Positions 18,010 through 22,451 of a stretch of 25,022 nt of DNA are shown in pieces. Both the position numbers and the translations under genes were made by a program. Each line of letters opens with the position of its first letter. Position 1 is the first letter of the stretch. Where the stretch lies: positions 1 through 25,022 of the IMG/VR virus record IMGVR_UViG_3300018420_000105; one strand, written 5' to 3'. Below the pieces are notes generated by a model, which was not told where the DNA came from, did no database searches, and saw only the letters and a program-made list of their open reading frames with translations. The stretch comes from a virus.

Positions 18010-18400
18010 AGCGTACTGTGAGCGTGTCGTAGACGGCGACAGCATAAAATTCGTAGTGGACCTCGGCTTTGCAGTGAGCAAGCGCGTCGATTGCAGATTG
18101 TTCGGAATCGACACGCCAGAGATGCGCGGTGGTACAGACACAACTAAGGCGGCTGCAAAGTTGGCCAAAGCGCGCGTTGAAGAAATCGTGCCCCCAGGTG
18201 CAAAAGTATTTTTGCGCTCATTAGAGCTCGATAAGTACGGGCGCAGCCTGGCAGTTGTTATCACTGGCGACGGTGACGTGGTGAACGACATTCTAATTGA
18301 TGAGCGGCTTGCGGTTCGCTACGACGGCGACAACAAAGACCAGATAGCCGAGGACCACGCCAAGAATTTAAGCTGGCTACAGGCCCAAGGTAAAATCTGA
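17990..18400 (+). CDS. Staphylococcal-nuclease-like (SNc) nuclease
   Basis: 136 aa from GTG 17990, with GGAG about 11 nt upstream; the longer frame back to 17843 lies inside the lysozyme gene. SNc-family motifs are VVDGDSIKF, VDCRLFGIDTPEMRGGTD and LDKYGRSLAVVI. These place the Ca-binding Asp, the Arg of RLFGID, the catalytic Glu (PE) and the second catalytic Arg (YGRSL). The enzyme class cuts DNA and RNA. It lacks an obvious signal peptide. Encoded between the endolysin and a large protein, it may help digest host nucleic acid at lysis or act in DNA metabolism. The role is inferred. Confidence 0.85.
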   Translation: MTPWNYEAYCERVVDGDSIKFVVDLGFAVSKRVDCRLFGIDTPEMRGGTDTTKAAAKLAKARVEEIVPPGAKVFLRSLELDKYGRSLAVVITGDGDVVNDILIDERLAVRYDGDNKDQIAEDHAKNLSWLQAQGKI

Positions 18401-20514
18401 TGGCAATTCCTGCAGCCCTGGCGGCGCAACTCACGCCTGAACAATTAGCAGCACTAGAACGTGCCACCGGCCCTGGTGCGTTTGGTCAATATCCGCAACG
18501 TATTCCCCAGCAAATGCTGCCTTACAGGCCCAGCGTGACGGATCGCGTCGACATGGGTGCATCCGACTTGTTTGGCAACGACCAGGCTGGTCGCAGACGC
18601 CAAGGCATGGTCAACAGGTATGTGCAGAATCTTACGCCGTTGCCAGCTGCAGATGTGTTTGGTCGAGCGGTTCAACAGTACAACTCGGGCGACTATCTAG
18701 GCAGCGCAATAAACACGGGTTTAGGCGCGATGAGCGTTATCCCCATCGGGAAAGGCCCAGCAAAGGCAGCGCAGCGAATCGCAAGAGATCGTGCGGATAT
18801 GGGCGTCTCACGCAGTAGGGACCGGATCGGGACTACTGGCCAATACATTGGAGCGCCGCAGGGCGTTAATACACCGCAGAAACTGCGCGCAAACCGCGAT
18901 GCATATATGGATTTGGTTCGTGAGGGCGATGCGGGAAGGAACTGGTATCAAGACTCAAGCGAGTTCATATCTAGGGTAACGCCTGATGATGAGCGGGCCC
19001 AACAGATTGCGAACATAACAGGGATCACCAGCGCTGGAACAGGCGTTGATCCAAACCTTGGCTTTACAATCAAGGGTGTGAATCAAAGCGCTGCAGGCAT
19101 GCCAGTGCGTACCGGGCGGTTCCCGAACAATCAGTCAGCGCTGATAGAGCAGACGCTCGCCGGCCAAAATCCTCCACTAGGTCCGAAGCGTGAGCCTTTC
19201 GCTCAGAATCTGGCGGTAAACTTTCGTCCTGACCTTGCGCGATTCCCCGTGCACGATATATGGCAAGGCCGCGCGTTTGGCTACCAGGGCAAGAAGGGTA
19301 AGCCGTTTGATGAGGGTTTTAGCCCCCAGCAACACGCCTTCTTAGATCGAGAAACCGACGCAATCATTGATAGGTTTGCAAAAGAGGGCGAGCAATATGA
19401 CCCGTTAAGTGTCCAAGCTGCCGCGTGGACAGGAGCCAAAATTCGCAGCGGCGAACTTGACCCCAGCGATGCTGCGAAACATTACGGCGATTTCGCAGAA
19501 AAATATGAAGCGGCAGGCACGTTCGAGCAAATACCTGGAGCGGGAACGGGCATGCTGGAAGGCATTGTTGATGCGCCATTTGGGCAGCGGCAAGATTACT
19601 CAAACCGTGTAAGTTGGAATGACGGTAGAGGCCGAGACAGTCTATACAGCGCCGCAGGGCTAATGACAGAGCCCAGCCGCGACGCTATGGGCGCCTTTAC
19701 GCCAGCGAGCGGTATCACCGAATTCAACCCGGCAACGGTAGCCAGGCCGCTGACGCAGACAAATAATCAACTGCTTCAGGCTGATCGACAGATCTTAAAT
19801 GTTACTGAGGCTGCCCGGGCGTTTGTAGATGCGCAAAATGCTGGCGCTTATCACCGCGTGATACCAAGCGGCCAAACTAAGGCTGGAGAAAGAACAAGTC
19901 TAGAAATAGACCTGCAGCGTCCTGTGAGCCAGCGTGAACTTGATAAACTTAATTCTATTGCCCAGAGCCAAGGGTATTTTGCTGTGGATTACGGCAACGG
20001 TGTGCGCTTTATCAATGACGCATTTGAGTCGCCGATAGGCATCCAGCGCGCAGAAACAATGGGCAAGACACCCAGGTTTGGCACAGATGAACTGAAACAA
20101 CTACAGCCACAGATACTTGAGGTTGTTGGAGACGCTAATATCAACCGCGTGAAGATAGATAGCGGCTACCTAGATTACGAAAGTGCGCTAGCCAAAATTA
20201 ACGCAGGATCAGGAATGGCAACACAGCAGTTCCTTGATTACCTTAGCGAAAACGCCACCGTTGCAAGAAACATTGAGCCGAGGTTACGAGCGAAGGCAGC
20301 GGAAAATCTTCAACGAGACGCTAACTTTTCTACCCAAACGGGTATGTCGTTACGTGAAGATATCCAGAATGCTCGCAGAATACTTGCGGATACAGGTATT
20401 GAGGGGCTCAGGGACGCTCTGGCGAAGGGGGCTCTGCTTCCTGCAGCCGTTGGTGCCGTGCTTCTCGGTACTGACTCAGGATCGTCAGGTTCGGTGGGGG
20501 CGGGTCCGGTATAG
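18400..20514 (+). CDS. Large unrecognised phage protein (704 aa)
   Basis: Start ATG 18400 shares one base with the previous TGA. I do not recognise a named family. The N-terminus is Pro/Gln-rich (FGQYPQRIPQQMLPYRPSVT), a pattern common in internal or structural phage proteins. The middle contains FRPDLARFPVHDIWQGRAFG and MTEPSRDAMGAFTPASGITE, which I associate only loosely with hypothetical proteins of marine phages. The C-terminus has a short Ala/Gly/Leu segment (GALLPAAVGAVLLGTDSG) that could be membrane-active. No nuclease, protease or lyase motif stands out. Its length and style match the late virion genes at the other end of the window, yet it is encoded in the lysis/Q neighbourhood. Confidence 0.5.
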   Translation: MAIPAALAAQLTPEQLAALERATGPGAFGQYPQRIPQQMLPYRPSVTDRVDMGASDLFGNDQAGRRRQGMVNRYVQNLTPLPAADVFGRAVQQYNSGDYLGSAINTGLGAMSVIPIGKGPAKAAQRIARDRADMGVSRSRDRIGTTGQYIGAPQGVNTPQKLRANRDAYMDLVREGDAGRNWYQDSSEFISRVTPDDERAQQIANITGITSAGTGVDPNLGFTIKGVNQSAAGMPVRTGRFPNNQSALIEQTLAGQNPPLGPKREPFAQNLAVNFRPDLARFPVHDIWQGRAFGYQGKKGKPFDEGFSPQQHAFLDRETDAIIDRFAKEGEQYDPLSVQAAAWTGAKIRSGELDPSDAAKHYGDFAEKYEAAGTFEQIPGAGTGMLEGIVDAPFGQRQDYSNRVSWNDGRGRDSLYSAAGLMTEPSRDAMGAFTPASGITEFNPATVARPLTQTNNQLLQADRQILNVTEAARAFVDAQNAGAYHRVIPSGQTKAGERTSLEIDLQRPVSQRELDKLNSIAQSQGYFAVDYGNGVRFINDAFESPIGIQRAETMGKTPRFGTDELKQLQPQILEVVGDANINRVKIDSGYLDYESALAKINAGSGMATQQFLDYLSENATVARNIEPRLRAKAAENLQRDANFSTQTGMSLREDIQNARRILADTGIEGLRDALAKGALLPAAVGAVLLGTDSGSSGSVGAGPV

Positions 20515-21204: not shown

Positions 21205-21381
21205 ATGGATGAGGACAAGCGCAAAGAGTTAGTTCGGGAGCAGGCAGCGCTGTCAGGCGGCTGGGTGTCGTTCCCATTCGACGCCAGGTGCAGCCGGTGT
21301 GGTTATGACTTCCTAGGGCACCCGAACAAAGAATCAATTATTAGCGGCTGTCCTCAATGCAACCGTAGTTTCTGCGAGTGA
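21205..21381 (+). CDS. Small zinc-ribbon protein upstream of the methyltransferase
   Basis: 58 aa from ATG 21205 to TGA 21379-21381. Two Cys pairs, CSRC and CPQC, are 26 residues apart (DARCSRCGYDF, SIISGCPQCNRSFCE), the layout of a treble-clef or ribbon zinc site. The N-terminus is charged (MDEDKRKELVREQ). There is no spaced Shine-Dalgarno site; AGGA touches the start codon, and the candidate -10 box TATACT would give a leaderless mRNA. The stop overlaps the methyltransferase GTG (GTGA), so the two are coupled. The function is unknown. Confidence 0.65.
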   Translation: MDEDKRKELVREQAALSGGWVSFPFDARCSRCGYDFLGHPNKESIISGCPQCNRSFCE

Positions 21382-22451
21382 GAGCCTATTACAACGAATT
21401 TGAGCCCTTTGCGGCGCATTGGCTGCGCGAATTGATACGTGAGGGGCTTATACCAGAAGGGGACGTGGACGAACGCTCAATCACGGACGTGGAGCCTACG
21501 GACCTCAAAGATTACACACAGTGCCATTTTTTCGCAGGGATTGGGGGATGGGCATATGCAACTCGACTTGCTCGATGGCCTGACTCCAGACCCATCTGGA
21601 CCGGATCGCCGCCCTGTCAGCCTTTCAGCGCAGCTGGGAAGCGGCTCGGAACAGAAGACGAGCGACACCTCTGGCCTGTCTGGTTCGACCTCGTGCGGGA
21701 GTGCAGACCTCCAACAATTTTTGGTGAGCAGGTTAGCGCAGCGATTAGGCACGGGTGGCTCGACCAACTCCAAGAAGACTTGGAAGCAAGTGACTACGCC
21801 GTCGGGTCGGTCATTGTCCCGGCTTCAGGTGTCGGCGCCCTGCACAAGCGAGACCGGCTATGGTTCGTGGCCTACTGCCGCAGCAACGGATCACAAGGGT
21901 GGTTATCAAGGCGGCAGGATCAGGAACGGGAAGTGGAGCGTGGACAGGCTCGATGTGGCAGCGCAGCTGACCGCTTGGCTGACTCCGACGACCTCCGATA
22001 TGAACGGAGTGAGGAAACTGGATGGCAAGCGGAGCGGCGGTCTGAACACACAAGTGCAAGCGAACACGTTGTGGGGAACTCCAGTGTCAAATCCAGCGAA
22101 CGGTTCACCGGAAGCCTTCCTCGAGAGAAAACGAAAAGCGGTAGCGAAGGGCTCAAAAATGGGAATTTGTTTGAGCGACATTCAGATGCAAGCGAAAACG
22201 GTGCCGTGGCCGACAGTGACAACTCAGGACAACGCTCAGATGGCGGGCCAGCACAGCAAGACCAATGGGACAACACTTGGGGGCGCTGTCAGGCAGTGCA
22301 ATGCAAAGACGGAAAAGTCCGCGCCATCCCAACTGAACCCGCGCTTTTCCCTTTGGCTGATGGGATACCCAATCGAGTGGGCATTCTCAGGGGAGCGGGT
22401 AACGCCATTGTCCCGCAGGTCGCGGCAGAAATCTTGAAGATATTCACATGA
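21378..22451 (+). CDS. C5-cytosine DNA methyltransferase
   Basis: 357 aa from GTG 21378. It transfers a methyl group from S-adenosylmethionine to cytosine C5, likely to protect phage DNA from host restriction. The motifs in order are FFAGIGGWAYA (51-61, SAM loop), GSPPCQPFS with catalytic Cys80, FGEQV (115-119, ENV motif with Gln for Asn), GALHKRDRLWFVA (153-165, QRR motif), and near the end PLADGIPNRVG and GAGNAIVPQVAAEI (motifs IX/X). Residues 170-300 are a hydrophilic Ser/Glu/Arg/Gly-rich stretch. The +1-shifted frame over the same bases encodes a second protein-like product. Recognition sequence unknown. Confidence 0.88.
   Translation: MRAYYNEFEPFAAHWLRELIREGLIPEGDVDERSITDVEPTDLKDYTQCHFFAGIGGWAYATRLARWPDSRPIWTGSPPCQPFSAAGKRLGTEDERHLWPVWFDLVRECRPPTIFGEQVSAAIRHGWLDQLQEDLEASDYAVGSVIVPASGVGALHKRDRLWFVAYCRSNGSQGWLSRRQDQEREVERGQARCGSAADRLADSDDLRYERSEETGWQAERRSEHTSASEHVVGNSSVKSSERFTGSLPREKTKSGSEGLKNGNLFERHSDASENGAVADSDNSGQRSDGGPAQQDQWDNTWGRCQAVQCKDGKVRAIPTEPALFPLADGIPNRVGILRGAGNAIVPQVAAEILKIFT
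21556..22437 (+). CDS. Overlapping-frame LNP...WLMGYP protein nested in the methyltransferase gene
   Basis: 293 aa from ATG 21556, which has GGGGGA ten to thirteen bases upstream; the frame itself is open from 21439. It lies wholly inside the methyltransferase gene in another frame. It is not random-looking: SADLQQFLVSRLAQRLGTGG, STNSKKTWKQVTTPSGRS, GSWPTAAATDHKGGY, WGTPVSNPANGSPEAF, VPWPTVTTQDN and LNPRFSLWLMGYPIEWA are segments I recognise from conserved phage hypothetical proteins (SWPTP..TD and LNP..VEWLMG.P..W), known to accompany phage cytosine methyltransferases. The function is unknown; repeated W-P-T motifs suggest a compact repeated fold. Confidence 0.7.
   Translation: MQLDLLDGLTPDPSGPDRRPVSLSAQLGSGSEQKTSDTSGLSGSTSCGSADLQQFLVSRLAQRLGTGGSTNSKKTWKQVTTPSGRSLSRLQVSAPCTSETGYGSWPTAAATDHKGGYQGGRIRNGKWSVDRLDVAAQLTAWLTPTTSDMNGVRKLDGKRSGGLNTQVQANTLWGTPVSNPANGSPEAFLERKRKAVAKGSKMGICLSDIQMQAKTVPWPTVTTQDNAQMAGQHSKTNGTTLGGAVRQCNAKTEKSAPSQLNPRFSLWLMGYPIEWAFSGERVTPLSRRSRQKS

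Follow-up and report, generated by a model that had tools for sequence, protein, structure and literature searches.

Two reading frames that overlap on one strand over about 880 nt of a temperate-phage DNA are both under selection, and selection swaps frames along the gene. Sequence comparison indicates that they very probably encode the two subunits of a single phage C5-cytosine DNA methyltransferase, in which gene A would supply the catalytic part and gene B, nested within A in the +1 frame, the target-recognition modules and motif IX. The stretch of DNA that was analysed, referred to here as the window, comprises 25,022 nt (positions 1 to 25,022 of IMG/VR record IMGVR_UViG_3300018420_000105). 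The features of the locus are listed below in window coordinates, with the basis of assignment in brackets.

21205..21381, + strand: upstream 58-aa Zn-ribbon-like ORF, its TGA overlapping the GTG of A (sequence)
21378..22451, + strand: gene A, C5-cytosine DNA methyltransferase catalytic polypeptide, 357 aa, GTG start (PHROG 363, PF00145)
21531..21548, + strand: A motif I, FAGIGG, SAM binding, its codons doubling as the putative ribosome site of B (sequence)
21542..21548, + strand: Shine-Dalgarno-like G-rich site of B, within the motif I codons of A (duplex energy)
21556..22437, + strand: gene B, proposed +1-frame specificity/motif-IX polypeptide, 293 aa, ATG start (PHROG 1008)
21556..21867, + strand: N-terminal domain of B, TWKxxTPSGR, overlapping A motifs I–VIII (alignment)
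21609..21629, + strand: A motif IV, PPCQPFS, catalytic Cys, pairing with PCQAFS of M.HhaI in the alignment (sequence)
21843..21869, + strand: A motif VIII, HKRDRLWFV, the final part of A alignable to M.HhaI (sequence)
21868..21975, + strand: B module 1, WPTAAATDHKGGYQGGRIRNGKWSVDRLDVAAQLTA, type 0 (module clustering)
21885..22307, + strand: hydrophilic linker of A, residues 170–310, overlapping the B modules
21976..22071, + strand: B module 2, WLTPTTSDMNGVRKLDGKRSGGLNTQVQANTL, type 7, 16 loci
22072..22206, + strand: B module 3, WGTPVSNPANGSPEAFLERKRKAVAKGSKMGICLSDIQMQAKTVP, type 4, 20 loci
22207..22332, + strand: B module 4, WPTVTTQDNAQMAGQHSKTNGTTLGGAVRQCNAKTEKSAPSQ, type 8, 15 loci
22333..22434, + strand: C-terminus of B, LNPRFSLWLMGYPIEWA..., motif-IX-like, overlapping 'PLADGIPNRVG...GNAIVPQ' of A
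22398..22424, + strand: A motif X, GNAIVPQVA, near-invariant in alignment A4 (sequence)

Gene A carries the catalytic motifs and a disordered linker

Gene A matched PHROG 363 (E 2e-74) and Pfam PF00145 (DNA_methylase, E 2e-17), and carries motifs I, IV (PCQ), VI, VIII and X together with the catalytic fold, by which a C5-cytosine methyltransferase is recognised. The usual motifs named in a preliminary description of the sequence (FAGIGG, PPCQPFS, HKRDRLWFV and GNAIVPQVA) were all found in A, motif I being mostly invariant in alignment A4. The alignment with M.HhaI spans residues 69–168 of A and ends at 168. In the AlphaFold model the catalytic domain is confident and its fold matches M.HhaI (Foldseek E 2e-8) and other C5 enzymes, residues 193–302 are disordered, with pLDDT below 50 and secondary structure absent, and the motif X helix stands at the end. 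Polar and charged residues make up 76% of the linker, against 49% of the first 168 residues. Neither the M.HhaI alignment nor the AlphaFold model revealed a target-recognition domain or a motif IX in the A chain. A consists of motifs I–VIII and X, and a disordered linker stands where the target-recognition domain and motif IX belong.

Gene B combines an N-terminal domain, a module array and a motif-IX-like end

The B frame is +1 relative to A; it is open from 21439, and B runs from the ATG at 21556 to the stop codon at 22435–22437. B matched PHROG 1008 (E 3.5e-29), a family that itself carries the label 'DNA methyltransferase'. B had been described at the outset as a conserved phage hypothetical protein; the family is indeed conserved, but it is not an unrelated one, being the half of this enzyme family that holds target recognition and motif IX. 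A Pfam search and an hmmsearch against the PDB gave no matches for B, and Pfam and PHROG profile searches revealed no nuclease domain (HNH or other). The N-terminal domain was predicted by AlphaFold as a helix and a beta hairpin in a one-module homologue (L047), whose B alone was modelled with a pLDDT of 59 and no fold match in the PDB, so no structural claim is built on this model. The C-terminus aligned with the motif-IX region of single-frame (fused) enzymes with an hhalign probability of 97%; the corresponding motif of the fused profile falls in register with motifs IX–X of M.HhaI, but at a score below zero bits.

Between these two ends lies an array of short segments with W-x-T/S-P-like starts. 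Across 149 B proteins we counted 464 of them, one to six per protein, with a median length of 35 aa. Their order and number vary between phages, and they form about 69 similarity groups in an automatic, rough clustering whose largest group mixes types and whose group 2 is an artefact of the N-terminal domain. All four modules of the window lie in B and none in A. In Bacillus phages (SPbeta, phi3T, rho11), multispecific C5 methyltransferases owe their several specificities to small recognition modules between motifs VIII and IX and, by analogy with these, the B modules look like interchangeable target-recognition cassettes. The one SPbeta-type enzyme checked, that of SPbetaL6, contains no P-T-P modules and is unlike the B modules in sequence.

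The nested frame is conserved among homologous loci

A +1 run as long as B arose in 47 of 20,000 synonymous shuffles of A (P = 0.0024). ORF length was accordingly dropped as the chief argument for B, since openness of this frame is just moderately unlikely and the case must rest on comparison. Searches with B and with A across viral contigs, prokaryote genomes and phage records yielded 228 loci including the window, all of which, bar a short fragment (L147), have A and B in the +1 phase; three (L060, L155 and L184) show frame jumps in addition, consistent with indels. B without A was looked for in this survey and never found. A further set of 80 loci was picked by frame-A motifs only, which avoids choice on B; here B lies in the +1 frame in 80/80, as an uninterrupted ORF in 79 and with the C-terminal motif in 78. 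A broken B beside an intact A occurred at a single A-selected locus (L336), and none was without B; the reverse case, an interrupted A with B intact, was seen at L360/L362 and at L401. Homologues with stops in the second frame and an intact methyltransferase, the refutation put forward in the preliminary description, were therefore not the pattern observed. The PHROG 1008 match, the 98 phage records matched by B in tblastn and the 80/80 loci together make chance untenable as the origin of B.

Single instances of the overlap have been seen before: the records of K1ind2 ('C-specific methylase' and 'Mte8-like protein') and PhiXhv-28 annotate the two ORFs next to each other, and B of Paenibacillus phage Shelly is annotated as 'g55 internal gene'. 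In Stenotrophomonas phage SOVA965 (L316:1184-1684) the 'DNA-cytosine methyltransferase' annotation sits on frame B and frame A is unannotated, and in a Porphyromonas phage (L236:1475-2089) B is annotated as hypothetical. A literature search, its coverage excluding most subscription journals, found the overlap nowhere described as a family; as far as searched, its breadth, the frame-swapped selection, the module shuffling and the series of layouts described below are new.

The same parts occur in fused, staggered and nested layouts

Actinophage enzymes are built from motifs I–VIII, P-T-P modules, 'FSEWMMGWPxGW' and motif X, arranged in a single frame or split between two staggered ones. Three layouts of the same parts were distinguished among 78 surveyed loci: fused, in one frame; staggered, with motifs I–VIII followed in +1 by the modules, IX and X (Peaches gp77/gp76, Suarez); and nested, with motifs I–VIII and X in one frame and the modules and IX in +1. 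In Mycobacterium phage Rita a single frame passes through motifs I–VIII, LLPTP modules, RLAPAFSEWMMGWPAGW and then IIGNGVVPQQ, and residues 196–388 of this chain match PHROG 1008 (2e-61), the family that B of the window also matches. Furthermore, B and 15 fused enzymes, compared profile to profile, matched with a probability of 97.4 and an E of 1e-11 over the modules and the C-terminal motif. Since actinophages hold the same parts in one frame or in two staggered ones, B appears to be the missing specificity/motif-IX half of the enzyme and not an unrelated protein.

An independent protein overprinted on the methyltransferase and acting outside the enzyme, such as an anti-restriction or regulatory factor, would likewise have its own N-terminal domain, start and ribosome site, and might well give no Pfam match and no recognisable fold alone, as is the case for B. 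Yet in the fused and staggered homologues the modules and the motif-IX-like end sit inside the methyltransferase, between motifs VIII and X; moreover, A is without those parts and B is never found without A. We consider it improbable that B is such a factor.

The DNA of a fused and a staggered locus (L245 and L254) is 96% identical along the gene's first 870 nt and again at its end, indicating that a local frameshift and the exchange of modules can turn one layout into another. In an unrooted layout tree, from which the motif filter had dropped 18 loci, nested loci fall on one side of a branch and the fused and staggered ones are intermixed.

Several loci depart from these layouts. In L155 and L184, indels in the module array run the N-half of A into the C-terminal frame of B, and B into the frame of motif X, the same swap that would produce a fused enzyme. 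In L060 (742-2709) A changes frame within the modules (ORFs 742-2146 and 2124-2709), with pieces of B at 818, 1790 and 2155. At four loci (L301, L311, L312 and L313) frame 0 holds motifs I and IV, +1 holds VIII and X, and +2 holds the module and IX, possibly through sequencing errors or a further split. In the fused actinophage group L238-L256, a +1 signature (rates at codon positions 1/2/3 of.265/.069/.196) marks the evolution of the stretch from motif VIII to the first in-frame LPTP module, where a short +1 ORF encodes an N-terminal domain and one P-T-P module (e.g. L238:1697-2062); these fused enzymes may retain a small overlapping B. The 'alpha/beta' pair annotated in phage MM1 1998 (L319:1201-2358) was rejected as a candidate: its alpha has a complete in-frame motif IX (LTPRECWRLQGFPDW) and its beta is without a P-T-P module, and the annotation of the latter as a C5 methyltransferase beta is doubtful.

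Translation start of B and genomic context

The suggestion in the preliminary description that B has its own ribosome site is borne out by the predicted anti-Shine-Dalgarno pairing at the ATG at 21556, −8.4 kcal/mol, whereas 1,822 internal ATGs taken as controls have a median of −2.4. In four homologues (L001, L002, L005 and L070) the +1 frame is closed immediately 5′ of this same ATG, and the site there is a perfect AGGAGG type, with energies of −10.7 to −10.9; in most other homologues the ATG of B sits 32–62 nt 5′ of motif I. The ATG of the next gene (22448) overlaps the stop of A and, with start/stop overlaps at both ends of A, translational coupling to the neighbouring genes is probable.

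The 25-kb record represents part of a temperate phage; it encodes an integrase, a RecE-type exonuclease and a repressor-like protein, besides NinB- and NinG-like genes. A 704-aa ORF (18400-20514) upstream of the methyltransferase region gave no PHROG matches. The scanned ORFs of the record included no recognisable restriction enzyme, so protection from host restriction would be the likely role of the enzyme.

Selection swaps between the two frames

Substitution rates were compared by region at loci where all landmarks were found, the motif VIII pattern matching 113 of 224 loci. The rates at A-codon positions 1/2/3, each with the 95% interval of the position 3/position 1 ratio, were as follows.

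Upstream of B:.166/.099/.476; 2.58–3.17
A motifs I–VIII over the B N-terminal domain:.172/.092/.334; 1.83–2.09
Module region:.274/.105/.167; 0.48–0.75
B C-terminus:.158/.061/.175; 0.95–1.28
Past the B stop:.019/.045/.281; 7–53

Upstream of B the rates are those of an ordinary gene; in the module region position 1 of A, which is position 3 of B, is the fastest. An independent nested group (L284-L314) shows the same reversal in its modules (.384/.165/.181), and single-frame actinophage enzymes with the same modules have normal rates (.135/.102/.404).

In a dual-frame test each change was classed as silent or not in each frame. The B-frame NN/NS, from pairs that share loci and were bootstrapped over loci, was 0.91 (0.61–1.42), i.e. 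unconstrained, in the control stretch upstream of B, against 0.28 (0.24–0.32) in the N-terminal domain, 0.11 (0.09–0.14) in the modules and 0.02 in the C-terminus. The A-frame NS/SS, in which the SS class has few sites, was 0.11 over motifs I–VIII, 1.19 (0.65–2.0) in the modules and 0.17 around motif X; the A-frame NN/SN of 0.19 in the modules is confounded by B's own constraint. Together, the frame-wise ratios and the rates place the modules under frame-B selection, the catalytic motifs mainly under frame A, and both ends under both. Constraint in both frames upholds what had been proposed from the sequence, namely true dual coding of two proteins over some 880 nt, with A (21378–22451) and B (21556–22437) both confirmed. 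The proposed handover from one frame to the other also held, the +1 frame and not A carrying the protein-like substitution pattern in the modules.

The same measurements bear on the possibility that ribosomes make a single chain, and no separate B, by a programmed +1 frameshift past motif VIII and a second shift back ahead of motif X. The order in the DNA, I–VIII in A, modules and IX in +1 and X in A, is that of a classical enzyme, and fused actinophage enzymes exist. However, two shifts would be needed, and the N-terminal domain of B, upstream of the shift point, is itself under +1 selection (NN/NS 0.28). Moreover, the start of B is conserved and its ribosome site strong, and the A frame stays open through the modules in nearly all homologues, which frameshifting does not require; we regard this route as very unlikely. 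There is only a slight chance that one frame alone is functional and the other open by compositional bias or correlated codon constraint. Openness is weak evidence, an equally long +1 ORF occurring in 0.24% of synonymous shuffles, but B-specific constraint relative to the within-gene control, codon-position rates reversed in two independent groups and B in 80/80 A-selected loci refute this explanation, unless the tests share an unseen artefact. An out-of-frame homing endonuclease, after the mobile HNH nuclease insertion that lies out of frame in the phage methylase of ShiLan (PMC11855218) and resembles B in being a second protein in an alternative frame of such a gene, was ruled out as the identity of B and has a negligible probability, as B gave no nuclease match, overlaps the catalytic motifs and is not an insert, occurs universally and not in patches, and shares homology with the C-half of the enzyme itself.

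Discussion

We favour the reading in which A and B are two subunits of one methyltransferase. A would supply the SAM-binding/catalytic domain (motifs I–VIII) and the motif X helix, with a flexible linker between them. Translation of B would start inside A, at 21556, its ribosome site lying within the motif I codons of A, and B would supply an N-terminal docking domain, the array of W-x-T-P target-recognition modules and motif IX, the last packing the recognition domain against the catalytic domain. As a complex, A and B would reassemble the two-domain fold that is found within a single chain in classical C5 enzymes. The choice of DNA to be methylated probably lies with B; each module is probably a separate DNA-recognition cassette, and a four-module enzyme would then methylate several sequences, shielding the temperate phage from host restriction.

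M.EcoHK31I has the target YGGCCR, and its small ORF is said to lie inside the large one in another frame, as reportedly described by Lee, Kam and Shaw in 1995. It is a two-polypeptide C5 enzyme whose large chain has motifs I–VIII and X and whose small chain has IX, and its recognition domain is predicted in the large subunit, not the small (PMC3404938). Like it, A of the window has motifs I–VIII and X, a motif-IX-like part being on the separate small polypeptide B, and the small ORF is nested in the large one in another frame, as in 80/80 A-selected loci too. Contrary to that prediction the recognition part here appears to be in the small frame B, in a likeness drawn by description and not by sequence. 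Furthermore, the small frame of the window adds a long N-terminal domain and a shuffled array of one to six recognition-like modules, and the pair is phage-borne with no restriction enzyme recognised nearby. No EcoHK31I-like restriction locus was recognisable in a plasmid collection. M.AquI (alpha/beta) is split within the variable region, with IX and X together (PMC3404938); the staggered actinophage loci (Peaches gp77/gp76), divided after motif VIII, resemble it, whereas the window keeps X with A and its frames are nested.

Several small modules are also a feature of the SPbeta/phi3T/rho11 enzymes, the analogy behind the proposal that each module of the window may have its own target; unlike those single chains in a single frame, the window has its modules in B, separate from A. 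ShiLan gp70 and Rita gp76 share with the window motifs I–VIII, P-T-P modules, FSEWMMGWP and X, and PHROG 363 with PHROG 1008, but hold all parts in one frame. We lean, by a little, towards a very large phage family in which catalytic and specificity subunits occupy overlapping frames, targets are swapped by recombining +1 modules while the catalytic frame tolerates any linker left, and fused, staggered and nested forms interconvert by frameshift.

The result corrects annotation, which gives the name 'the methyltransferase' to frame A and often overlooks B or leaves it hypothetical. It is rare in DNA phages for a long same-strand overlap to be demonstrably selected in both frames; the recurrence of this one in hundreds of genomes makes it a good natural system for the study of dual coding. 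If each module is a target cassette, a split modular enzyme could yield programmable C5 methyltransferases, and the content of the array would predict which restriction systems a phage evades.
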